From positions 1-20,317 of IMG/VR virus record IMGVR_UViG_3300035145_000162: a DNA stretch of 20,317 bases; one strand, written 5' to 3'. The notes under the pieces are model-generated. The model saw nothing but the letters and a program-made list of their open reading frames with translations, was not told the origin of the DNA and ran no database searches. Below are positions 4,687-19,672 of the stretch, piece by piece. Position 1 is the stretch's first letter. Every line of letters begins with the position of its first letter. The DNA is from a virus. The translations under genes were made by a program, and so were the position numbers.

Positions 4687-4705
4687 GCAATATTTATGAT
4701 ATTGC
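4687..4705 (-). other. Inverted repeat containing the gp7 stop codon
   Basis: GCAATAT (4687-4693) and ATATTGC (4699-4705) form a perfect 7-bp stem with a 5-base loop, and the TAA stop (4694-4696) is in the loop. It is A+T-rich and not followed by a clean T-tract, so it is at best a weak terminator. It could instead be a transcript 3'-end stabiliser or a processing site. The fold is directly visible; the function is not known. Confidence 0.45.
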
Positions 4706-7700
4706 ATAAGGAATTAACTCATCTCCGCTTGATACGTTTGTAGGTCCGCTAATAACGGTACAACCTTCAAACTGAGATGATGTCTTTCCTGTGTACTGAA
4801 TGACAGTTCCCGCACTAGTGAACAGGTAACCTGTAGTTGGGAAGTAATTTGTATTTTGTACAACCAAGTTTCCAGCAATAGCGCCAGTTGCGCTACTAAT
4901 GGCAACAGGATTTTGAATTGATGGTGGTACAAGGTTGAAAATAGGACCAGCAAGGGTGTAACTGGATTTACCTCTATCAGTAAAGTCTTTTAATGTAAAC
5001 GCTGGGAAGTAGAAATCAAACTCTTTAATTGTTAGCGCGGAAACACCTGCCGCACCATCATTAAATATACCATCAAAGAAACTGATAGTATGACCAGCAT
5101 TGGTCTTGGTGTATTGTCCAATGTATTCGGAACCAACACCAAACAATGAGTTGAAGATCTCAATTTCAGTGGCATCTCTCTTAGTTACAAAGTATTTGCC
5201 ATTGACATCAATGAGATCAACCTCACCATCATGTGTTCCCTGAGTGTTACCTGCTCTGATTGCTGTAGGATCAACGATGAACGCTTGTTCTTCATATCCA
5301 TCAACAACACCGCCAGGTGGAGGAGTGATTACAACCTCTAGTGCTTCTCTAGTAATGGAGAAGTCAGCAGGAGCTTCAATTTCTCTTTGGACACTTCTTT
5401 CAAATCCAGCAGCAGATGCGCTTGCGGATACCATAGTAACATCGCTTTCGCTTTCGATGGTGACGACACCAACAGATGCGACAGAAACAAGTTCTGGAAC
5501 CTGTCTCATGAATGTGCCTGCTGCCCAGAATTGTGCAGTAGTTCCTTTTCTGCCTCTTAGGACATTGAGGAAACGATCGTTCAACTTACGACCGTACTCA
5601 ACCATTTCATTACCAATGAGCAACTGACCCATTGCATCAAACTTGGCAGTATCAGCAATGTAAACAACATTATCAACAGGGTCAAGGTCAACCTGCAAGA
5701 ATGCACCAACCTCGAAGAAGTTGACGTTATCAAGAGCATTGTTAGGAATTTCAATCTGCTGTGTCTGGGTGATTACTCTGCTTACAGTAGAGATAGAATT
5801 GACTGTTACAATGTCCTGCAATTCTGCAGATACAACAGTTGCTTCATAATCCAAAGTATGTACTACAACATCTTCAGCTGATGGATCAGAAGAACTATTG
5901 ATTTCAATAATATCTCTCTTAGGATCTAATGCTCCACCGATAGAGAATACCTCAATCTCTTTAGGAGTGAGTTCTCTTTCAATCTTAATGGTTGCATCAG
6001 TGAGTGGACCGAATGTAACACTAGAGATACTATCGATAGCATTGAGACCAGCATCACTAATGGTATCAATAACAGACAATGCACTCATTCCAAATCCACT
6101 GATGTTAGTCTCAATACCTAGATTGATTAGAGATACACCAATGTCTCTTTCAGAAAGAATATCAAATCTTCTTGCAACAACTACCTTAGGTGCTTCTGTA
6201 TATCCAGATCCACCATCAATGAGGTCAACACTGATTACTTGACCTTTATTTACTAGAACATTTGCTTTAGCACCACCACCTTGTCCATTTTCAGGAATAA
6301 ACTCTAGAACTGGTGGCGTATCATATTGATATGCTGTTGGTTGTGTGATAGGTTCATAACTACGTTGGTTCCAAGTCAAAGAAACAACAGAACCATTCTC
6401 AATAGTAGCAATAACTGATAATCCTTCACCACGAGTGATACCAGTGTAACTTTCGATTTCTACTTGACCGTAGATATCATCAGTTACCATCTCGCCAGGT
6501 CTACCATCTTTACTGGTTACAGTAGTTGGTAGCTTCTTGATATTTCTAAACTCATTTTCACCTTCTACTCTGATCTTGTCACCACTAGAAAGATATACAA
6601 ATGGAGACTTGTATATTTTGCCTAGTACAGTTCCAGACCAAATACCAGTATCATCTTGTAGTTGTTTTCTGCCATAATCATCTACATCGAATGTAATAGT
6701 AGCAGTAGTATAATTAGCAGTTGTGATGGTATAATTTAAGTTATAGTAACTCTTGACACCAAATACTAAATCCAGTCCTGGTTTGACAAAACCATTTTGA
6801 GATTGTAGATTAAACTGCATGGTTGTGCCAACAACATACAGGTTAGATACTGTACCAATTGTATTGTATGTTCCATCTGGATTTACCTGCCAGCAGTCGA
6901 TTGGAAGACCAATCTTGTCGCCCATCCATGTATATGTGGAGTATCCACTAACAGTATTAGCGTCAACACCAGTAATTTCAAATACACCACTTGAGAAGTA
7001 AGTATCAGGAGCAAAATCATAGATGTTAAGAATTTGACCGACATCTCTACCATAAAGATATCTCATGTCAATCTTCATTTCCTTCTTAATAGGAACATTA
7101 AAACTAATGTTAGGACCAGAGATAGTGTAAGAATAAGTTTCTCTTTGTAGAACACCATCTAGGAAGACATACAAGTTGTCATTAGATTCGATGCTTTGTA
7201 CACTATTGTCTTCTACATCCAAAATCAAGAAAGGACCAGACTTAACATCATCTACTAGATCATAGTCAATTGTAAGTCTCTTATAATTACCAACACCAAC
7301 CATAGATGTTTTTTCTACAGCAGTTGGTTCACCAATAGATTTTGCACCAAAGTCTTGATCCCAAATAGGAGCAACATCAAACTTGATCAAGTTTGGAATT
7401 ACACTTCTATCAATAAAGTATGCGTCAAACAATGGGAAGTTTTCAGTATACTTTGGTCTTTGTAGAACGGCATTTAGAGTTACAAACAGATCTTCATCTT
7501 CTTCTAAGATAACTTCTGTATTGTCATCCCAATATAGTTCAAACTCTTTAGTTTCTCCATCAATAAAATCAGGTAGTGCTTTAGTTACAGAGTTTTGTGC
7601 TAGAATATCTCTAACGTTACCAAACAGAGCATCAACAGAAGAAATTACATCATTACATTCTTGTGCTGGTAGCAATGGATCACCAATAATATTATAGTTG

Positions 7701-10700
7701 GAGTATGTAAGAGATTGAGACCAATTACCTGCTTTATTTGGATTTTGTTTTGTAATTTCAACTAGTCCTCTACCTTCTGTTAGAATAGTATTAACAATAC
7801 CATAGAAAGTATCAAGAGAACTTTCTACTTCTGCACAATATGGAGAGAGACTATCAACTAGTACAGCAGGATCAGTAACTGGAGCAATATTGGTATAAGT
7901 TCCTGCTACAAGAGAGTTTCTCATTGCTTGAACCATTAGGTCTTTTGCATATTCAAATGCTGCAAGACTTTCAGTTAGTTCGCCATTGATAGAAAGAAGA
8001 TTTTCGGAACTTGGATAGTCTGCCTTCACATAGTATAGTTGACCGAATTCAACAACCTTTTGGTTACCACCAAACTTGAGGTGATAAACAAAGGCATCAA
8101 CCAAGAAACCTAGATCACGCTGACACTTAGCACCTTTTGCATTCCAGTTAATGCCAGGATAAGTTGCTTCTGCCCAACCAACAGTCTCTTCTTGGATATA
8201 TGCTTTGTTAGCATCAATTAGATTACCAGCATCATAGAATGTGCCATTGTTGATGCCACTCCAAGAGAATGTTGCTTGGTCAGTTCCAGAGAACGATACT
8301 GGTGCAGTAACAGTAACGCCAGGTGGTAGTGCATATGTATTACCAGGTGCAACAGCACCAGTGTTAGTAGCAATGCTGCCAGTAGTCGCTGTGCCACTTA
8401 GCAAAGTGGTCCCTGCAGGAGCACCGCCACCACCAGAGGAGTTTGCCATAGCACTATTGTTTAGTGTTACCTGAGTATCACTATCAATAGAGATAATTTT
8501 AGTTCCAGTATGGAATGCTCTACCAGAACTTACAAACATACCAACAGCAACATTAGCAGTGCTAGTAAGGTTCATGATATTTGAACCTTGAATGTAAGTT
8601 ACACCAGTGTCAGTCCAATCCCAATTACGGATTGCTAGTTTTGCTAGTCTGGAAGCATAGTCAAAAATATCTGTGCTTTCTGTTCTGTAATTTTGAATAT
8701 ACAAATATGCAGAACCTTCATTGAAAATAGAAGTATAGTCTACAGTCTTGACGTTACCACCAAATCTTAGGTCATGATCATATGCATCAATAATTGATCC
8801 AATGTTAACTTCATAATCATCTTGCTTTGTGCTCCAATCTAGTGATGGATGAGTTGCCTTTGCATAACCAATAGTTTCTTCTACAATAAATTTACGATTT
8901 CTTTCTAGTTGATTTGCTGCATCAATCCATCTACCATTTCTTTGGTAGATATTACGAATACCTCTAAAGTATCTGTCATTGTACTGATTATCTTTAAATG
9001 CAACATACTTACCATAGAATGTGACACCAACATAATCTGTAACGTCAGTCAGTGAATTGCCAGTCTGTTTGCTGTTTGGACCTAGAGGTGGTTGACTGAA
9101 GATAATTCTATCGCCAGATACAGTATATGATACGCCAGGTTCTTGTAGCACACCATCTAGACTGATGATGAGATTTTCTACAGAGTATGGATTGAATGGT
9201 GTTCCTTGCTCATTCAGAACTTGGAAACTTGTGGTTCCTTGTAACCTACCATCAGTATCATAATATCCATCGAAAGCAGCACCCAATGTAACTGGGAATG
9301 CACGCATTTCATTGAAGTTAAATTCTGTAGTTGATGCAGATCCAACTGCTTTACGAATTCTTTGATTTTCAAACTTCTCAATACTTTGAGTAATAGTTCT
9401 CTGTGTGCTCTCAACAGTAATCTTATTCTTATTTGGATCCCAAAGTTGGATTACTGAGAAGTGAGATGCTTTAGGCATCTCCACAGGCATTTCTGTAGAG
9501 GCAGTTGCTTCTAGATCAACTTCACCAAATAATTTGAAACCAGCAGGGTGTGTGGTAGACTTAATAAGTTCACGCCATTGGTCAATAGGTGTCTTTGACT
9601 TAACAACGTAAGAATAATCTTGATAGAAGTAACTATCAACAATCTTCTGATTAGAGTTGCCTAGTCTACCTCTATCTGATTTGTAGTATCCTAGGTTGTC
9701 ATAGAAACCAGAAAGTTCTTTTGTGAAAGTCGTTGCAAATACAGTCTTAATAGTGGCCGCGGCGTTAGTAACAAGACCAATGATTTCTACGTTCTCTCTT
9801 AATGTACCCTGTACATTTTCTAGTTTAAGTAAATTACCACCAGATCTAAACTCAACGACTTCTGCTCTAGCAACCTCAGAACCTGATAGTCTTTGTACTA
9901 CAATTTCACCTTTTTTGAAAGTGTAGTTACTACCAGATAGAGAGACAATAAAGTTTGAATTGAATGCAGATGCAATAGTCTTGTCTAGGTGATATGCACC
10001 ACCATTGTCAATGATAGAAATACTTCTAGGAAGACCTATTGTATTACTTTCAACAAACGCCTCTACATCACCTTCTACAATCTCAATGGTAGGAGCATAT
10101 GAGTATCCCTTACCAGCATTAGTAACAACAATAGAGAATACGCTACCATCTCTAATGACGATACCGAATTCTGCGTTCGATCCATCACCATCAGTGATAA
10201 CAACTTTTGGATTTACATAGTTAGACCCTTTTTCTTTTACAGAAACACCTGTAATTGTTTGTGATGCATTATCAAACAACACAGTAGCAGATGCTCTATA
10301 ATCTACGTTAGGTTCTACACCATCAATGATAGGAACTTTCTTATAGTTTAGTCCGAGGTTTGTGATTGAGAACGAGTTGATCTCGCCAACAGCGAACTGA
10401 CCAGTAGTAGTATAAGAAATGGATCCAGAACCATCCCAAAGAGGCTCACTAGGTATATCGTAAACAAAACGAGTGGAGGTAACATAATTGATTGTCTTTA
10501 CACCTTGAAGAGGATCGGTAATAATCTTGAGTGACTTACCTTCAGAATTAACAACACCTTTTCTATCAAAGTAATAGAAATTAGTAAAATCAGTTCCTAT
10601 CTTTTTAGTATATGTGTTGTCACTAAGTCTTGCACCAAATCCAAATTTTACATCTGTATAAGAACCAGCATTTCCTGGTAGAATTGTGGTAGCAAACTTC

Positions 10701-13700
10701 TCTAGAGTTTCTAGATTATAGTTTCTACTTGGAGACATATCAAAATAAGTCCCAGTAAGACTAGAATGAGACGTATCAAACTTATACTTGTAATATTCCT
10801 GAATATTAATATCAGGGTTAGGGGTAAATGTAGTGTTGTCTTCTGAAAATTCAAATTTATTAATTGTTTCACCCGCAGAACTTACAGCAACTAATCTTGC
10901 AGGAGTGCTGCTATCAAAGAAACTAGAACTTTGTGCTACTACATTTGGATTTGTAACACTATAGTTGTAGATGACTGTAATTTTTTGAGTGTCTCTATCA
11001 TAAGACTGGATAAATCCAGAATTGTTTCCAGTAAAGATCTGGAAGTTAGCATCAAAGTTATATCTTGGTTTATACAAAGATACTGCCTGACCATCATAGT
11101 GATCAACTGCAGTAGTTCCCTCTCTTGCAGTAGAAACAGTAAGAGTGCTTCCATCAATAGAAGAAATTTCTAGGATCTCTTCTCCAACTTGAATTAGATC
11201 ACCGTTAGCATACTTAACTGCATCGTCAACAATCAGTTGTGTAGATCCTGCTGCAAAACCAACATGGTCAACATAAATGACTAGACGCATCGTGCTCTGT
11301 GATCCACCAGACCTTACTAGATCTTCATCAGCAACACCAAGGTAGTCTGCTTTACGATACCCAGATCCCTTTGCTTGAATTTGTACAGATGATACAATAC
11401 CAGCATCAGAAACTACAATAGTTGCTGTAGCACCTGTACCAGTTCCTCCAGTCAATGGAATGTTAGTATATGTGCCAGCAGTGTAATCTGCACCACCATT
11501 TAGAATTTGGAACCTACCAATACCAGTATCATTAATTGTAGTATTGACTTTAGGTGGAATTAGAGTTGCCTCTTGATATAGTCTTTTTCTAATCCAGTAA
11601 TTCTTGGTTTTTGTACTATCATCTGGGTTGATATCGATAGTTGCTTTGTCACCAATACCAAGACCATGCGCTGTAGATGTTTCTATCAAAGCAACACTTT
11701 GATTTACATCAAATGGTTCTAGGTTATCACTCAAAGAAGTAAGTGTGATAATCTTGGAACCAATAGTATTGAAGAGGTTATCAGATTGTATAAAGTAATC
11801 GTCATTGATTACCCATGTTCCTGTAAGAACTTTAATAGTTACAACATTCTGACGATTTGTGCTTTCTAAGATTTCTGCTGTTGCAACTGGTGGGTTAATA
11901 CCATCGGTTAGACTTAATACAGCACCTTCTGTATAAGAACTATCTTGATCTAGTAGAACTGTAAAAGTTTTGATGTCAGCAGAGAATGTACCAGTATTAT
12001 TAAACGTACCATTAACGTTCTTGAGAACAATTACGTTATCGTTAGCAACTGTACCTACAATCTCGCCAAATGCACCAGAAGATGGTTGTCTTAGTGTATC
12101 ATCAGCAAATAGGTATGCAGTTTGAATAGTCGTTAGTTTTACAACTTTAGTTTCTTTACTTTGTAAGTAATTAACAGTCTTGCCTTTTACAGAAGCAACT
12201 AGTGCCTCTGCTTCAGAACCCTGCGTTCCTTGATTGTTGAAAAATACTTTATTGTTTACTGTGAAGTTAGCAGATGATCTATCAATATTGATACTATCTA
12301 CTGTACCAGATGAAACATCGGAAATAGTTCCAACAAATCCTTCACCATTTCTTGGCATTGCTGCGACAGATAGTCTCTTCGCATTCTTAGGAACTTCAGA
12401 CTGAGTGATATCAGAGTTGTAATTACTATCTACTGGCAATGAGTAGAAATTAGCACCTAGAATGTATGGGAATTGCGGTACTTGATTGCTATCAATAGTA
12501 ATGAAATAAGCATAAGTTCCTTTCGGAAATTCTGGGGTAATACAAAATCGTCCATTGTTTTCGTCTAATGACCCGCTACGGTGGGTGTAGGTGTAATCAT
12601 CAACAAAAGTACCCATGGGGTATTGTGTCAATGAAGGACCACCTGAACGAGTTCCGTTGATAGAATAACCAGATGTCATTCTAACGATAGATGAATTTGT
12701 ATCTAGTGGGTCTTCGTAACCGAACGCACCATAGATAGGGTTGCCATCATAAGCAAAACCAATAATTGGAGAGTGAGTTTTACTTGCTGGTTCTGATCCT
12801 GCTTGGTTTAAATTATCATTTAGTGTAACACGAACTGCTTTAGGGTTAGCAATGTAACCATAACCATACTTAAGAACAGGATTATAGTTCTCAAAGATAT
12901 ATCCGTTCTCAGTGTCTAGTTTGTTTTCTAGTTTCTTGTATCTGTTGAAGTTCCATTCTTTTAATTGTGGAATACCAACTGCACCACTACCAACAGGAAT
13001 GATGTCTACAATAACACTGTCTTGAGTGTAGAAGTTACCTTCGTCAATTTTATCAAATCCTGTAATTCTACCCTCAGCATCAATGATAGCATCATAACTA
13101 GCAAATCTACCACGACCTGCATTGTCTCTAATTCTTACTAGAGGAGGAGAAGAATAGTATTCGCCAGGATTGTCAATGAGTAGAGTTGTTACCTTACCAC
13201 CAGTAACTACAGCACGTACAACTGCTTCTCTACCAGAAGTAATAGTGATCTCTGGTGTCAATGGGAAAGTATCTGTTGTATCTACAATGACGCTTTCAAC
13301 AACCTGACCAGACAATACTGCTCTTGCTTTGTTTGGAACTTGATCGACAAGAACAAATGGTGGTTTTACATAACCACGTCCTTGCTGATCTACAGTAATT
13401 TTCTCTAACGTTCCAAAGAAAACACTGTCATCATCTCTATAACTGTAAGTACGAACACCATTCAATAGAATACCAGTGTCTGCTTTTGGTGTCTTATATC
13501 TTTCTGTAGATGTAGTTGCTCTCTTTCTAATGAGACGCAAGATGTTTTGATCTAGTACCGTCTCAGTAACAACAGAACCATCTAGAATTTTATGTGATGG
13601 AAAACCAGAAGATGTGATATAATAGTATTGATCGTCCTCAAAAATAGCAGAGACATCTGTGGTTACTTGATCCAAAGATGTAGCAACTGCTGGTAGAGTT

Positions 13701-15043
13701 GGTACGTTGACATCTAGATGTTGACTTAGCAACCAACGTGTTTGGTTAGTTCCTACGTTTACAATTTTGGGATCAATAGTCTTAAATCCAGGATCAGAAA
13801 CTTGGATCTTATCTCCAACATTGGAATAAGGTTGTGGATCTGATGGACTTAGATTATATACGACGCCCATTGTGAGCAACGTTACACCAGTGCCTACCAC
13901 TGTGACTGGTTTGTATACAGCATCATCTACACTATGTGCTACAGCAGTAGATGGTTGTCTGTTCTTGATAATAAACTGCGTTACGTTCTTATCCTCAAAC
14001 GTAATCGTTTCTGTGCCTAGTAAGATAGATCCAGTGTTTCCCCAACCAACTGTTGAGAATACATTAATCCTGTCACCACTAGATGCAGTTCCAGAAACAT
14101 TTTTAGTTAGTTTTGTTTTTGTAGATACAGCAAACTCGCCAGTGACAGTCTCGGGGGCAAGAATGATGTTGTAAATTACTTCACCATCTTTCGTGCCATC
14201 AGACTGTACATTGTCAACAGTAGCAGATGCATAACCATATTCATCTGTCTCTGCTTGGACGATCTTATTACCGATCAACGCTTTAGGGTCACCAGATACT
14301 ACTTTGCACTTGAGTGCATAGTTACTGATCCAATCAGCGTTAGAAGACTTATATGTAAAATCTTTTGGTTTGTATACCTCAGGTTTATCAGTTGCATCCT
14401 GAGTTACAATAGTATTAAAAATAAATTTGATGGAACTTGTAGTTCCTTTTGCCTTATAGAACTTACTGATGTTCTTGATAAGGGTTCTCTTGTCTACCTC
14501 ACCTCGTAGATACTTTTCAGGAAAAGAACCTAGGTATTGCTTTTCAAAGTTCTTAACCAGTGCGTACAGGAAAAGGTTACTTACATTGAGAACTTTTGCC
14601 CCAGCATTATGCGATGCCGCATCTGTGCTAGTAAAATTACTTGCCTCATATAGATCACCAAGAGATGTGTTGCCACTAATACCTCTAGAACACTCTCTGA
14701 ACTCTGTGTCTGTTCTTGTAGCATAGAAGATGATCTCATCATCAATGCGGATGTATCCGTTCTTCTTTGGGAAGGATTGTGCATCTGTTACAGTGATTGT
14801 AGTATCGCTGTTTGTGATGTCTACTGTTAAACTATCGTTCTGCTTGAGAATGTTCTTCTCATAAAAATCGATGTCAGCATATTTCTGGATATTACTAATA
14901 ATATCCAAAGTGCCACCTTGCACCTCCTGTGCTTCATAATACTTCTGAACGAACTTGCCAAACAGTTCGTATTCATCAGCAATAAAAGCAGGAAGCTGTG
15001 TCTCGATCAGAGTGGAAATTCTCTTAGTCTTTACAGCAGGCAT
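4694..15043 (-). CDS. 7: Giant gp7-like baseplate wedge protein with YHYH-type domain
   Basis: This 3449-residue protein lies between gp6 and gp8, the place of T4 gene 7 (1032 residues). Two blocks resemble the C-terminal part of T4 gp7. Residues about 193-212 (KFYKAKGTTSSIKFIFNTI) match the T4 segment DFYSTKGIEASYKFLFKVL. Residues about 1815-1840 (DQWRELIKSTTHPAGF) match SRWKSDVIRFVHPVGF. In T4 these blocks are roughly 130-160 residues apart; here about 1600 lie between them. The insertion holds a YHYH-type domain (about 735-855, with HSPIIGFAYDGNPIYG and NNGRFCITPEFP) and Gly-rich beta modules (about 554-680, 1181-1236, 1558-1661). After the second block come a duplicated helical unit (about 2050-2110 and 2278-2340) and another Gly-rich module (about 2908-2960). 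A motif of the form G-x-hydrophobic-x-x-G-x-E-x-hydrophobic recurs five times, the last at the C-terminus. The TAA of gp6 ends 5 bases before the ATG. In T4, gp7 joins gp6, gp8 and gp10 in the wedge; the periphery is probably much larger here. Cyanophage proteins of this kind are sometimes given other names, such as VrlC-like; I cannot check that. Confidence 0.85.
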   Translation of the reverse strand: MPAVKTKRISTLIETQLPAFIADEYELFGKFVQKYYEAQEVQGGTLDIISNIQKYADIDFYEKNILKQNDSLTVDITNSDTTITVTDAQSFPKKNGYIRIDDEIIFYATRTDTEFRECSRGISGNTSLGDLYEASNFTSTDAASHNAGAKVLNVSNLFLYALVKNFEKQYLGSFPEKYLRGEVDKRTLIKNISKFYKAKGTTSSIKFIFNTIVTQDATDKPEVYKPKDFTYKSSNADWISNYALKCKVVSGDPKALIGNKIVQAETDEYGYASATVDNVQSDGTKDGEVIYNIILAPETVTGEFAVSTKTKLTKNVSGTASSGDRINVFSTVGWGNTGSILLGTETITFEDKNVTQFIIKNRQPSTAVAHSVDDAVYKPVTVVGTGVTLLTMGVVYNLSPSDPQPYSNVGDKIQVSDPGFKTIDPKIVNVGTNQTRWLLSQHLDVNVPTLPAVATSLDQVTTDVSAIFEDDQYYYITSSGFPSHKILDGSVVTETVLDQNILRLIRKRATTSTERYKTPKADTGILLNGVRTYSYRDDDSVFFGTLEKITVDQQGRGYVKPPFVLVDQVPNKARAVLSGQVVESVIVDTTDTFPLTPEITITSGREAVVRAVVTGGKVTTLLIDNPGEYYSSPPLVRIRDNAGRGRFASYDAIIDAEGRITGFDKIDEGNFYTQDSVIVDIIPVGSGAVGIPQLKEWNFNRYKKLENKLDTENGYIFENYNPVLKYGYGYIANPKAVRVTLNDNLNQAGSEPASKTHSPIIGFAYDGNPIYGAFGYEDPLDTNSSIVRMTSGYSINGTRSGGPSLTQYPMGTFVDDYTYTHRSGSLDENNGRFCITPEFPKGTYAYFITIDSNQVPQFPYILGANFYSLPVDSNYNSDITQSEVPKNAKRLSVAAMPRNGEGFVGTISDVSSGTVDSINIDRSSANFTVNNKVFFNNQGTQGSEAEALVASVKGKTVNYLQSKETKVVKLTTIQTAYLFADDTLRQPSSGAFGEIVGTVANDNVIVLKNVNGTFNNTGTFSADIKTFTVLLDQDSSYTEGAVLSLTDGINPPVATAEILESTNRQNVVTIKVLTGTWVINDDYFIQSDNLFNTIGSKIITLTSLSDNLEPFDVNQSVALIETSTAHGLGIGDKATIDINPDDSTKTKNYWIRKRLYQEATLIPPKVNTTINDTGIGRFQILNGGADYTAGTYTNIPLTGGTGTGATATIVVSDAGIVSSVQIQAKGSGYRKADYLGVADEDLVRSGGSQSTMRLVIYVDHVGFAAGSTQLIVDDAVKYANGDLIQVGEEILEISSIDGSTLTVSTAREGTTAVDHYDGQAVSLYKPRYNFDANFQIFTGNNSGFIQSYDRDTQKITVIYNYSVTNPNVVAQSSSFFDSSTPARLVAVSSAGETINKFEFSEDNTTFTPNPDINIQEYYKYKFDTSHSSLTGTYFDMSPSRNYNLETLEKFATTILPGNAGSYTDVKFGFGARLSDNTYTKKIGTDFTNFYYFDRKGVVNSEGKSLKIITDPLQGVKTINYVTSTRFVYDIPSEPLWDGSGSISYTTTGQFAVGEINSFSITNLGLNYKKVPIIDGVEPNVDYRASATVLFDNASQTITGVSVKEKGSNYVNPKVVITDGDGSNAEFGIVIRDGSVFSIVVTNAGKGYSYAPTIEIVEGDVEAFVESNTIGLPRSISIIDNGGAYHLDKTIASAFNSNFIVSLSGSNYTFKKGEIVVQRLSGSEVARAEVVEFRSGGNLLKLENVQGTLRENVEIIGLVTNAAATIKTVFATTFTKELSGFYDNLGYYKSDRGRLGNSNQKIVDSYFYQDYSYVVKSKTPIDQWRELIKSTTHPAGFKLFGEVDLEATASTEMPVEMPKASHFSVIQLWDPNKNKITVESTQRTITQSIEKFENQRIRKAVGSASTTEFNFNEMRAFPVTLGAAFDGYYDTDGRLQGTTSFQVLNEQGTPFNPYSVENLIISLDGVLQEPGVSYTVSGDRIIFSQPPLGPNSKQTGNSLTDVTDYVGVTFYGKYVAFKDNQYNDRYFRGIRNIYQRNGRWIDAANQLERNRKFIVEETIGYAKATHPSLDWSTKQDDYEVNIGSIIDAYDHDLRFGGNVKTVDYTSIFNEGSAYLYIQNYRTESTDIFDYASRLAKLAIRNWDWTDTGVTYIQGSNIMNLTSTANVAVGMFVSSGRAFHTGTKIISIDSDTQVTLNNSAMANSSGGGGAPAGTTLLSGTATTGSIATNTGAVAPGNTYALPPGVTVTAPVSFSGTDQATFSWSGINNGTFYDAGNLIDANKAYIQEETVGWAEATYPGINWNAKGAKCQRDLGFLVDAFVYHLKFGGNQKVVEFGQLYYVKADYPSSENLLSINGELTESLAAFEYAKDLMVQAMRNSLVAGTYTNIAPVTDPAVLVDSLSPYCAEVESSLDTFYGIVNTILTEGRGLVEITKQNPNKAGNWSQSLTYSNYNIIGDPLLPAQECNDVISSVDALFGNVRDILAQNSVTKALPDFIDGETKEFELYWDDNTEVILEEDEDLFVTLNAVLQRPKYTENFPLFDAYFIDRSVIPNLIKFDVAPIWDQDFGAKSIGEPTAVEKTSMVGVGNYKRLTIDYDLVDDVKSGPFLILDVEDNSVQSIESNDNLYVFLDGVLQRETYSYTISGPNISFNVPIKKEMKIDMRYLYGRDVGQILNIYDFAPDTYFSSGVFEITGVDANTVSGYSTYTWMGDKIGLPIDCWQVNPDGTYNTIGTVSNLYVVGTTMQFNLQSQNGFVKPGLDLVFGVKSYYNLNYTITTANYTTATITFDVDDYGRKQLQDDTGIWSGTVLGKIYKSPFVYLSSGDKIRVEGENEFRNIKKLPTTVTSKDGRPGEMVTDDIYGQVEIESYTGITRGEGLSVIATIENGSVVSLTWNQRSYEPITQPTAYQYDTPPVLEFIPENGQGGGAKANVLVNKGQVISVDLIDGGSGYTEAPKVVVARRFDILSERDIGVSLINLGIETNISGFGMSALSVIDTISDAGLNAIDSISSVTFGPLTDATIKIERELTPKEIEVFSIGGALDPKRDIIEINSSSDPSAEDVVVHTLDYEATVVSAELQDIVTVNSISTVSRVITQTQQIEIPNNALDNVNFFEVGAFLQVDLDPVDNVVYIADTAKFDAMGQLLIGNEMVEYGRKLNDRFLNVLRGRKGTTAQFWAAGTFMRQVPELVSVASVGVVTIESESDVTMVSASASAAGFERSVQREIEAPADFSITREALEVVITPPPGGVVDGYEEQAFIVDPTAIRAGNTQGTHDGEVDLIDVNGKYFVTKRDATEIEIFNSLFGVGSEYIGQYTKTNAGHTISFFDGIFNDGAAGVSALTIKEFDFYFPAFTLKDFTDRGKSSYTLAGPIFNLVPPSIQNPVAISSATGAIAGNLVVQNTNYFPTTGYLFTSAGTVIQYTGKTSSQFEGCTVISGPTNVSSGDELIPYAIS

Positions 15044-17266: not shown

Positions 17267-17435
17267 ACTTACCGCAGAATCCGTCCGCCCACTCCTCTTG
17301 ATTGTCAAAGATTTCTCCCTCCTTGACATCTTTCATCTTACTTGCTTTCTTTAAGTAACGTTCACTATCGATTTCCGTAATGAGTGTCATGCCAGACTTC
17401 CTAAAGTCTTCACTCTTGTCCACTCTCTTGTCCAT
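17265..17435 (-). CDS. Short protein of unknown function upstream of gp25
   Basis: The frame is open from 17489, but the best start is the ATG at 17435. It has a GGAG ribosome-binding site 9 bases upstream (GGAGACCTCTG) and gives a 56-residue protein that overlaps the preceding gene by only 26 bases. ATGs at 17489 and 17468 would give 74 or 67 residues with larger overlap and poorer ribosome-binding sites. The protein is hydrophilic and charged (MDKRVDKSEDFRKSG at the start, NQEEWADGFCGK at the end), with no membrane segment and no family I recognise. It is the last gene before the gp25 promoter, and its stop codon overlaps that promoter. Confidence 0.65.
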   Translation of the reverse strand: MDKRVDKSEDFRKSGMTLITEIDSERYLKKASKMKDVKEGEIFDNQEEWADGFCGK

Positions 17436-18099
17436 CAGAGGTCTCCGTTCGTTGTTTACGTTCAGCATTAGTTTCCCAAAAATAATCATCAGTGTCGCCT
17501 AGTCTCCCCCAGTCTACTCCTGCCTCCACTTGGTATTCTATGGTAGATACTTTGAAATCAGGTGTCAAGGGGTCTTCAGGCGTGATAGAGAGGTCATACA
17601 GACGCATCCTGTTATTAGGATACAATGCAAATTGACCATTCTCCAACGCAATGCAGTTATGTGACTTATGCTCCTGAGGAGTTTCACTCACATTATTATC
17701 TATCACATCAGGGTTCGCATGGTAGTTGTCTAATGTAAACAAATACTGACCATGCAACAAACCATGGTCTCTTGTTCGCACTTCACAATCCATTGAAGAG
17801 ATAAAACCCTTATTGATTGCCATCACCCCATAATCCATACAATTCCAAAATTGTAGGTTCTCTAGGGACATATCGGGCGTCGGTGTTTTCGGCGCTCGGA
17901 GAAAAGCAGATATAGGAAGTTTATCATACATTGCCCCATAAGTAGGCAGATAAGTCTCAAAGTAAAAAGCACGACCAGGTATACTCTTCGCAGATACCCA
18001 AACGCCCTCTACAAATTCTCCATGTCCACTCTGATGGTCTGTAAGGTATTCTTTCCTTACCCAAACTTTTTCTGAAGGCAGGTTACAAATAAGGTTCAT
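17410..18099 (-). CDS. Conserved cyanophage-type protein of unknown function
   Basis: This 229-residue protein begins MNLICNLPSEKVWVRKEYL. It contains a well-structured middle, for example GVWVSAKSIPGRAFYFETYL (about residues 33-52) and GQFALYPNNRMRLYDLS. It ends in a hydrophilic Glu/Gln/Ser-rich tail of about 20 residues that overlaps the next gene. Its ATG overlaps the TAA of the oxygenase gene by one base (TAATG), so the two are likely translated together. I recall similar proteins next to gp25 in T4-like cyanophages but know no assigned function. It has no signal peptide or membrane segment and many aromatic residues, which fits a folded cytoplasmic or virion protein. Conserved linkage to the oxygenase makes it a possible partner or substrate; this is inference. 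Confidence 0.88.
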   Translation of the reverse strand: MNLICNLPSEKVWVRKEYLTDHQSGHGEFVEGVWVSAKSIPGRAFYFETYLPTYGAMYDKLPISAFLRAPKTPTPDMSLENLQFWNCMDYGVMAINKGFISSMDCEVRTRDHGLLHGQYLFTLDNYHANPDVIDNNVSETPQEHKSHNCIALENGQFALYPNNRMRLYDLSITPEDPLTPDFKVSTIEYQVEAGVDWGRLGDTDDYFWETNAERKQRTETSDGQESGQE

Positions 18100-18635
18100 T
18101 AGTAATCTAAGTCAATCCAACCAGTGATAATTGTTTTCTCTGTATTACAGACACGTCCTCTGTGAGTATGTGTCCAATCAGCAGGCCATATGATAGTCTT
18201 ACCCACCTCGGCGCTGACGTATTTATTTTGATATTCAAACTCAGTGCCACCGTCAGGATTATCAGAAAGATACGTCATCCACACAAGGTGACGGTCTCTC
18301 GTTCCACGACGATCACTCCTCTCCCAATGCCATACTTTATAACCTTCGTTAGGTTCGTATCTCTGGATGTTAAACAACTCAGAGACCTTACAAGGCATTA
18401 CTCCAGCATATGGGAAGAGATCAAAGTATTTCTCACATACATCACTAAGTTGAGACATGTACTGAAGAATACAATCTTCACTCTTCTCTAACATGCGATG
18501 TAGGTGTAGGTCTGTTGAATGCTTCCCATCAGTATAGGATGTCTTCCGTAGGTACTTACACTCATCGTAGTACCTCAGAAGATCATCACATACTTTCTTA
18601 TCTACCCAACCCTCATAGATGAAGTTCGGTGTCAA
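18099..18635 (-). CDS. 2-oxoglutarate/Fe(II)-dependent oxygenase (prolyl 4-hydroxylase-like)
   Basis: The C-terminal half carries the double-stranded beta-helix signature of the prolyl 4-hydroxylase branch. WHWERSD gives His103 and Glu105 (an HxE form of HxD), RHLVWMTYLSD is the core strand, GGTEFEYQ follows, and THTHRG supplies the distal His158. Lys167, nine residues later in EKTIITGW, fits the 2-oxoglutarate carboxylate site. Numbering is from the TTG at 18635, which lies one base after the TGA of the small basic gene and gives 178 residues. A GTG at 18653 is also possible. An ATG at 18755 gives 218 residues, but its first 40 are an out-of-frame reading of the upstream gene and look non-native. 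The enzyme should use O2 and 2-oxoglutarate to hydroxylate a substrate that cannot be told from sequence. Such enzymes are common in marine T4-like phages, and the baseplate setting suggests a virion protein substrate. Confidence 0.88.
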   Translation of the reverse strand: MTPNFIYEGWVDKKVCDDLLRYYDECKYLRKTSYTDGKHSTDLHLHRMLEKSEDCILQYMSQLSDVCEKYFDLFPYAGVMPCKVSELFNIQRYEPNEGYKVWHWERSDRRGTRDRHLVWMTYLSDNPDGGTEFEYQNKYVSAEVGKTIIWPADWTHTHRGRVCNTEKTIITGWIDLDY

Positions 18636-18636
18636 C

Positions 18637-18786
18637 TCATTTACCCTGTCCACGGTAACGCTTCTTTGCCTTGTTCCGAGACGTTGCTGACAATTTCGTA
18701 TGCTGTCCAGATCCTTGACGAGTTTTCTTCGGACGACTTTCAATAGTAGGTCCACCGCTCAGTCCGACTTTTGCTCTTGTTGCCAT
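18637..18786 (-). CDS. Very small basic protein (49 residues), conserved-looking
   Basis: A 49-codon gene runs from ATG at 18786 to TGA at 18637-18639. The protein starts MATRAKVGLSGGPTIESRPK and ends KKRYRGQGK. It has 14 Lys/Arg, one acidic residue, and many Gly, Ser and Thr, so it is probably flexible and may bind nucleic acid or an acidic protein surface. I recall near-identical short proteins in T4-like cyanophages but no known function. The start is one base after the TAA of the PAAR-like gene (TAATATG), and the stop touches the oxygenase start, so the three are likely coupled. No own ribosome-binding site is evident. Its presence decides against the long ATG start of the oxygenase. Confidence 0.8.
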   Translation of the reverse strand: MATRAKVGLSGGPTIESRPKKTRQGSGQHTKLSATSRNKAKKRYRGQGK

Positions 18787-18787
18787 A

Positions 18788-19165
18788 TTATGTTGGTGTA
18801 GGATTTACAATATCAATTGTAGGATACTTGAACGGTCCTGTCAAGGTCCTTGGTGTACTTACTCCAACTAGACTTGCCTCATCACCAGTGACTGCGAATA
18901 ACTGTCCATTGATAAACACACTGTTGTTTACAACTGGATTGATCCTTCGCTGACCTGGTTGACATGGTGCAGGTACTAGTGGATTGACCTTTACACCATC
19001 CACTGCCTCTGGGAAGTTCGTAGAACTATAGTAATTAACTTGCTGTCCCTCAAAGTATACGTTAGGACTGACAGCAACGTTTCCTCCAAGTGGTTTTGCA
19101 GGATACAAACAGTTTCCATCCGTACTGGGCGAATCTACACAGTCTGGTCCAACTACATTTGGCAT
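18788..19165 (-). CDS. PAAR-like / small virion protein
   Basis: This 125-residue protein is rich in Pro, Gly, Val and Asn. It contains two related units, SPNVYFEGQQVNYYSST (residues 33-49) and NNSVFINGQLFAVTGDE (80-96). They resemble the xxNVFINGxPxxxxGD turns of PAAR-repeat proteins, which cap the central spike of contractile tails (gp5.4 in T4). It has no histidine at all, whereas classical PAAR tips bind a metal through His and Cys. Three Cys (9, 19, 68) are the only candidate ligands. A role at the tail tip is plausible from the repeats and from lying in the baseplate region, but a general small virion protein is the alternative. The ATG at 19165 has a GGCGG ribosome-binding site (AAAGGCGGTGTAAC) and follows the coiled-coil gene by one base. 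Confidence 0.6.
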   Translation of the reverse strand: MPNVVGPDCVDSPSTDGNCLYPAKPLGGNVAVSPNVYFEGQQVNYYSSTNFPEAVDGVKVNPLVPAPCQPGQRRINPVVNNSVFINGQLFAVTGDEASLVGVSTPRTLTGPFKYPTIDIVNPTPT

Positions 19166-19166
19166 G

Positions 19167-19394
19167 TTACACCGCCTTTGCTACTTTTACTAGATCTTGC
19201 TTGATCCCTTCTATGTTATTATGTAGATAGTCTAAAGTATCACTTAGCGTCTCGTGCTTACTCGTCGCTGGTCGCCTGTACATCAATGTAGGGCGCTCCA
19301 GATGGGATACTCGCTGCTCCAGGTTCTCTAACCTCTCTGACAACTTCAGGAGTGCTGTCTCCAATTTCTGCTGTCGCTTCATTAACTCTTCCAT
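19167..19394 (-). CDS. Small coiled-coil protein
   Basis: The preferred start is the ATG at 19394, giving 75 residues. It is preceded by GAGGTGATC six bases upstream, a nine-base perfect complement to the 3' end of bacterial 16S rRNA. A GTG at 19406 lies inside that site and is therefore less likely. Residues about 1-37 (MEELMKRQQKLETALLKLSE onward) form heptads with Leu/Met at a and d positions, so a coiled coil is expected. A short middle with Pro and Arg and a second amphipathic helix near the C-terminus follow. It probably oligomerises. It overlaps the upstream gene by 137 bases in another frame. I recognise no named family; a chaperone or baseplate accessory role is a guess. Confidence 0.75.
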   Translation of the reverse strand: MEELMKRQQKLETALLKLSERLENLEQRVSHLERPTLMYRRPATSKHETLSDTLDYLHNNIEGIKQDLVKVAKAV

Positions 19395-19509
19395 CGTTTT
19401 GATCACCTCTCATGAATGCATTAGATGCTCTACTTTCAAACTCGTCGCAGAACGCATCGAAGTTTTCCAAAATTTCATCATAATCTTTGAAGTCAACTTT
19501 TTGGGGCAT
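19258..19509 (-). CDS. Small acidic protein of unknown function, first gene of the structural cluster
   Basis: This 83-residue protein begins MPQKVDFKDYDEILENFDAF, a helical acidic N-terminal part of about 35 residues. The remainder (MRGDQNDGRVNEATAEIGDS onward) is Gly/Pro/Ala/Glu-rich and probably disordered. The last 45 or so codons share DNA with the coiled-coil gene in a different frame. The ATG at 19509 follows a long A-run with no strong ribosome-binding site, and a GATAAATA late-type promoter lies about 58 bases upstream. I do not recognise a function. The ordered, characteristic N-terminus makes it a likely real gene; the tail may be shaped by the overlap. Confidence 0.75.
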   Translation of the reverse strand: MPQKVDFKDYDEILENFDAFCDEFESRASNAFMRGDQNDGRVNEATAEIGDSTPEVVREVREPGAASIPSGAPYIDVQATSDE

Positions 19510-19566: not shown

Positions 19567-19574
19567 TATTTATC
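19567..19574 (-). promoter_or_regulatory. Late-type promoter at the head of the structural cluster (GATAAATA)
   Basis: The minus strand reads GATAAATA, one base from the TATAAATA late consensus. It lies after the terminator of the preceding block and about 58 bases before the ATG at 19509, the expected place for the first late promoter of the cluster. Confidence 0.6.
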
Positions 19575-19647: not shown

Positions 19648-19672
19648 AAAAAGGGGCATATCACTGCCCCCT
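19648..19672 (-). terminator. Rho-independent terminator after the accessory genes
   Basis: On the minus strand GGGGCA and TGCCCC form a 6-bp stem around a 6-base loop, extendable by a G-U and an A-U pair, followed by five T residues. It lies 17 bases after the stop of the gene ending at 19689 and separates it from the structural cluster. Confidence 0.88.

Follow-up and report, generated by a model that had tools for sequence, protein, structure and literature searches.

The window analysed here, the whole of a 20,317-base virus record, is a fragment of a T4-like cyanophage (Kyanoviridae); among annotated phages it is nearest to T4-like cyanophages, with S-WAM2 at the top, and its structural genes are carried on the minus strand. 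The structural block begins with two short genes, ORF1 and ORF2 (Table 1). An original prediction, made from the letters of the window, held that the two share 137 bases read in two frames, and this was confirmed in all its coordinates, ORF2 lying in the +1 frame.

Table 1. Features of the ORF1/ORF2 locus (positions in the window)
Feature	Position	Strand	Remarks
ORF1	19509-19258	-	acidic protein of 83 aa that opens the structural block; phrog_10663
ORF2	19394-19167	-	75-aa helix-linker-helix protein; own Shine-Dalgarno (SD) site; ATG 19394 inside ORF1
Dual-coding overlap	19258-19394	-	137 nt including the ORF1 stop; ORF1 frame 0, ORF2 frame +1
SD GAGGTGATC of ORF2	19401-19409	-	within ORF1 codons R-G-D-Q
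ORF2 start ATG	19392-19394	-	73/76 distinct sequences have an ATG at one or other of two adjacent codons
ORF1 core helix, residues 10-34	19408-19482	-	outside the overlap; predicted by AlphaFold2
ORF2 N-terminal helix, residues 2-33	19296-19391	-	inside the overlap; predicted by AlphaFold2
ORF2 conserved LMYRRP motif	19269-19286	-	its Met is the start of 6 truncated GenBank CDSs; 51-row alignment
ATAAATA, T4-late-promoter-like, upstream of ORF1	19567-19573	-	in 103/152 distinct upstream regions
Terminator-like hairpin upstream of ORF1	19651-19672	-	1 found vs 1.2 expected by chance
Next gene, weakly PAAR-like	18788-19165	-	phrog_11361; phrog_281 PAAR at E 0.03

Gene order, protein families and public annotation

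The ATAAATA motif upstream of the first gene looks like the core of a T4-type late promoter, by analogy with the TATAAAT given as the T4 late promoter in PMC3037559. After one simple shuffle of each of the 152 distinct upstream regions retained, it was found in 5 of them, as opposed to the 103 natural ones; the window as a whole has six copies on the minus strand and none on the plus strand. Downstream, a single base lies between the ORF2 stop and the ATG with which the following gene begins. Baseplate wedge genes occur in the block (gp25 in the window, gp25 and gp6 in S-WAM2), and to judge by gene order, with ORF1 and ORF2 heading a block that includes these and the weakly PAAR-like gene, the two may have a role in tail or baseplate assembly. 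A 2OG-Fe(II) oxygenase (17410-18099, minus strand) and a phrog_3704 protein (18099-18755, minus strand; PHROG label ‘ferredoxin’, no Pfam match) also lie among the baseplate genes, and a single open reading frame of 3449 aa (4694-15043, minus strand) is found within the structural block.

ORF1 matches phrog_10663 over residues 1-81 of its 83 (E 6.1e-40), as do all 59 members of its alignment. The match of ORF2 to phrog_14192 (E 6e-21) covers residues 38-75 only, i.e., from LMYRRP on, and further profile matches are with phrog_27895, phrog_37119, and phrog_699. Two public protein families, phrog_14192 (38 aa) and phrog_27895 (42 aa), describe ORF2 without its first, overlapped helix. In Pfam, ORF1 had no match and ORF2 had 15 weak ones, all under the cut-offs and many of them coiled coils; among solved structures the best E values (0.16 for ORF1, 0.08 for ORF2) were not credible.

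The AlphaFold2 models, both with a pTM of 0.36, predict for ORF1 a core helix with block pLDDT values of 87 and 82 that drop to 69 over residues 31-40. A second helix (38-49) is of low confidence, and beyond it no secondary structure is predicted; the blocks from residue 41 on score 46-57. We read this low pLDDT as possible disorder of the ORF1 tail. For ORF2, helices are predicted at residues 2-33 and 50-74, with pLDDT values of 86, 90, and 78 over residues 1-30, 55 over residues 31-40 and approximately the same across the linker, and 68-74 in the second helix. Where a well-formed coiled coil had been foreseen for ORF2, the model agrees as far as the long first helix is concerned, and it is a helix that it supports.

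From 57 phage records with an ORF2 match, 21 were picked for variety, i.e., non-randomly, and 20 of these are annotated. In 18 of the 20 this conserved gene near the cyanophage baseplate genes is omitted or shortened. It is annotated across the overlap in S-PM2 and Syn1, truncated in seven records (ACG-2014e, i, and j, two S-CAM4 isolates, S-CAM3, and Sf-FP1), and absent from eleven (S-WAM2, S-CAM1, S-RSM4, S-B43, Sf-CH1b, S-MbCM7, S-H9-1, two S-RIM44 isolates, S-H9-2, and S-RIM32). A likely cause is that gene finders penalise long overlaps. In S-WAM2 (L150:1962-2090), ACG-2014e (L157:1926-2147), and S-CAM4 (L160:1806-1976), minus-strand CDSs are recorded next to, or across, the position of the gene that follows ORF2; these look like annotation errors adjoining a missed or truncated ORF2.

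Spread of the overlap and selection in the two frames

For comparison, 312 loci were gathered in addition to the window, 21 from phage records and 291 from viral contigs, many of which are covered twice. ORF2 was present in all 313 loci and an upstream partner in 312, which represent 184 distinct sequences after identical ones were collapsed; L261, a contig that begins inside ORF2, was excluded. All 69 loci retrieved with ORF1 as query also hold ORF2. ORF2 and the gene upstream of it overlap in the +1 frame, with both frames open, in 183 of the 184 distinct sequences; that both frames are open across relatives was one of our tests of dual selection. Overlap length was tallied from a plausible ATG in 179 of the 184, the start being ambiguous in several lineages (e.g., L144, L161, L162, and L302) and an ATG in the ORF2 frame being missing within the searched range in 6 of the 179. 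It is mostly 119-146 nt in the lineage of the window, mostly 89-107 nt in an S-CAM1-like group, 62-80 nt in two further groups, and 44-65 nt in the S-PM2/Syn1 group.

A homologue with one frame disrupted, which the original prediction regarded as evidence against dual coding, was encountered once among the 184 distinct sequences, in L310. There an inserted gene of the phrog_35149 type sits in the overlap and cuts the ORF1 tail short, while ORF2 remains intact. To judge from this arrangement, the tail can be lost and ORF2 can stand alone. The inserted gene (L310:756-1205) lies at the ORF2 start site with a 29-base repeat of that site on both sides, as read from the alignment ranges; its phrog_35149 relatives are labelled ‘chromosome segregation protein’ in some phages, e.g., Sf-FP1.

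The original prediction had proposed an analysis of substitutions by codon position in relatives, and its outcome supports dual coding. Rates were compared only in sequences with the exact core spacing of the window and a full ORF2, indel lineages being excluded; the set comprised 76 and later 98 sequences, in 97 of which the ORF1 stop lies 20 nt or more beyond the start of LMYRRP. Diversity at ORF1 codon positions 1, 2, and 3 is 0.19, 0.09, and 0.47 before the overlap and 0.33, 0.23, and 0.20 inside it, where variability tracks the third position of ORF2 at a lower level and is nearly flat in the first half. Omega values, based on changes counted on a tree of the 97 sequences, reveal purifying selection on ORF2, with 0.40 (0.25-0.55) in the overlap vs 0.29 outside. 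For ORF1 they are ca. 1.0 (0.65-1.58, NN/SN) in the overlap vs 0.23 outside, and by this measure no purifying selection on the overlapped ORF1 residues was detected in the 97 sequences; the NS/SS ratio of ORF1 in the overlap, which comes from few sites in 76 sequences, is 0.18 (0.13-0.75). In the same 97 sequences the ORF2-synonymous rate in the overlap is 0.525 (0.40-0.69) of that outside and the ORF1-synonymous rate 0.26 (0.17-0.38).

An ORF1 omega of this size would fit a situation in which the overlap genuinely codes for ORF2 alone and the ORF1 tail is an unselected by-product of a lost stop. The cut tail of L310 and the low-confidence model of the tail agree with it, as do the few nonsense changes that alter ORF2, for which no depletion was found (4 per 96.8 opportunity in the overlap vs 6 per 170.1 in the control, few events in both). 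However, the ORF2-synonymous rate would then not be roughly halved in the overlap, and the distribution of stops is also difficult to reconcile with an unselected tail: in 76 sequences the overlap contains no ORF1-frame stop except the own ORF1 stop of one sequence, whereas the stretch coding for ORF2 only contains 167. Among changes silent in ORF2, the nonsense/missense ratio in the ORF1 frame is 0.06 in the overlap vs 1.17 in the control, i.e., nonsense is about twentyfold rarer (Fisher p 7.6e-18 on the counts of the 76 sequences). An open ORF1 frame in any single sequence is not improbable; in 15 sequences it was retained in 4.6-72% of cases after shuffling the ORF2 codons and in 0.05-3.8% after resampling them.

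The tail is, furthermore, far more acidic than the codons of ORF2 predict. Its net charge is -3.6 vs +3.8 expected from resampled ORF2 codons, or +5.0 if only stop-free resampled sequences are considered, and it has 7.0 D+E vs 2.5 and 8.3 P+G vs 3.8 expected, while the charge of the control stretch fits expectation (2.9 vs 2.7). With the own codon usage of ORF2 as reference, the charge contrast shrinks to -3.6 vs -0.2, and the compositional argument is weaker because the counts come from sequences that share ancestry and are, hence, not independent. The earlier description of the tail as low-complexity was overstated, since its entropy is 3.51 bits, where stretches of the same length from the 3449-aa protein have 3.71 ± 0.15 bits and 8.4% of them score below the tail. 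Altogether, an unselected tail seems improbable to us, and we read the comparison as pointing to selection on the ORF1 tail for length, charge, and flexibility rather than for residues.

The start site of ORF2

The predicted duplex of GAGGTGATC with the anti-SD, at -16.6 kcal/mol, is the strongest of the window starts scored; the next-best, -11.0 kcal/mol, belongs to the gene after ORF2, and 10 of the 15 starts in the main list, in which gene starts were the choice of the analyst, have a duplex weaker than -4. The sequence GGATCACCTCCT forms the 3' end of host-type 16S genes and was read in at least nine loci, seven of Prochlorococcus and two of other cyanobacteria, among the 80 matches listed. 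SD sites usually have their optimum at a spacing shorter than the 10 nt that separate GAGGT from the ATG in the window, and the duplex energy of ORF2 should, therefore, not be equated with an initiation rate. The claim that this site is far stronger than any other stands for the predicted duplex energy and is tempered by the spacing and by the variation of the site among relatives. In the 76 distinct sequences (window included) the Gly codon at the SD is GGA in 54, GGT in 21, GGG in 1, and GGC in 0; the relatives mostly have GGAGATC or GGTGATC at this place, followed by ATG-ATG, ACG-ATG, or ATG-ACG, and the median duplex energy of the 76 is -11.4 kcal/mol. None of the 64 sequences encoding Asn-Asp uses AAC-GAC, the sole synonymous pair that abolishes both ATGs. 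On this comparison, ORF2 has a conserved SD site, of which the nine-base match represents one variant. GAGGTGATC occurs once in the window and somewhere in 14 of 100 shuffles, so that the 9-mer by itself is not rare; what is notable is its position ahead of a conserved ATG. The GTG at 19406 was rejected as a start codon for ORF2, since it falls within the SD, is preceded by a site with a duplex energy of -2.7 kcal/mol, and is GAG in those sequences in which the Gly codon is GGA.

Alternatively, the true start of ORF2 could be the Met of LMYRRP, which would leave a protein of 38 aa in the window and a short overlap. Six of the 20 annotated records begin ORF2 at this Met, and phrog_14192 covers the corresponding residues only. 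The conserved ATG and SD upstream, the ORF2 omega of 0.40 and the predicted helix inside the overlap, and the annotations of S-PM2 and Syn1, which extend across it, all argue against this start, which we consider very unlikely. In lambda-type phages tail assembly chaperones are made by programmed frameshift. A comparable ORF1-ORF2 fusion might be suspected here, as two small overlapping genes open a block of tail/baseplate genes and both frames are open through the overlap. It is less likely still, given that ORF2 has its own ATG (73 of 76 sequences) and a strong SD, unlike a downstream frame without a start, that the required shift would be +1 or -2, that ORF2 is separate from ORF1 in L310, and that no conserved homopolymer run (at least four A, G, or T, or at least three C; 90% identity) was found in 97 sequences.

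Origin and significance of the shared DNA

We consider it quite probable that the 137 bases encode two proteins, of which ORF2 is independently initiated and dominant, and that the ORF1 tail is an acidic extension into ORF2. Within the cyanophage structural block, ORF2 would be a gene in its own right with its ribosome-binding site and ATG inside ORF1, and ribosomes would start on it, on a shared late mRNA, before ORF1 is finished. Its N-terminal helix would dictate most of the sequence of the overlap; the C-terminal tail of ORF1, extended into ORF2, would be nearly free in its residues, with the frame kept open and the composition acidic and rich in Pro and Gly. The tail is, then, probably a flexible acidic extension. 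That its bulk properties (open frame, acidity, and flexibility) are selected through synonymous codon choice in ORF2, and its residues hardly at all, is a more tentative proposition, in which we have somewhat less than even confidence.

Both overprinting and extension of the tail had been offered as origins of the overlap. Of these, extension into ORF2 fits the comparative data better than an overprinted new gene, because the conserved ORF2 core (LMYRRP...LDYLHNN) is situated where the overlap ends and past that point, because relatives of ORF2 are also found downstream of a gene without detectable relation to ORF1 (S-PM2/Syn1 group), and because the position of the ORF1 stop varies between -73 and +56 nt, counted from the LMYRRP codons of ORF2, while the ORF2 ATG keeps its aligned place in ORF1 in both the lineage of the window and S-CAM1. 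A young ORF2 arisen mostly over an older gene was rejected on the same grounds: its core outreaches the overlap and it is found behind another upstream family. From this we infer the direction of the extension.

Overlapping genes as such are already a known kind, and the pairing of a disordered with a structured protein is a known theme among them. The low-confidence ORF1 tail over the predicted ORF2 helix may be a further instance, with the difference that it is found in a large dsDNA phage and that the core of ORF2 lies past the overlap. A close parallel is the T4-GC 821/T4-GC 822 pair of S-PM2 and Syn1, in which the annotated ORF2 homologue likewise overlaps its upstream gene in the +1 frame. 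There, however, the overlap measures 44 nt in S-PM2 and 59 nt in Syn1, counted from the ATG, and the gene upstream encodes a phrog_9448 protein; homology of ORF1 with this T4-GC 821 protein is unsupported (hhalign probability 1%). The T4-GC numbers 821, 822, 823, and 394 were not found in the main text of PMC3037559, as far as this was available, and no literature on the ORF1/ORF2 overlap was found among the matches listed. For viral same-strand +1 overlaps, PMC8903798 gives a median of 14 nt (IQR 8-26); strand and shift are the same as here, where the overlap is 137 nt and the virus a T4-like phage.

The pair is a good test bed for the sharing of DNA by two proteins, as its sequences are numerous and diverse, the constraint on the two frames is clearly asymmetric, and the genes have been separated once in nature. 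If the more tentative proposition above is correct, a structured protein and a flexible tail tuned in its charge would here be naturally encoded on one stretch of DNA, with L310 as a separated pair for comparison.
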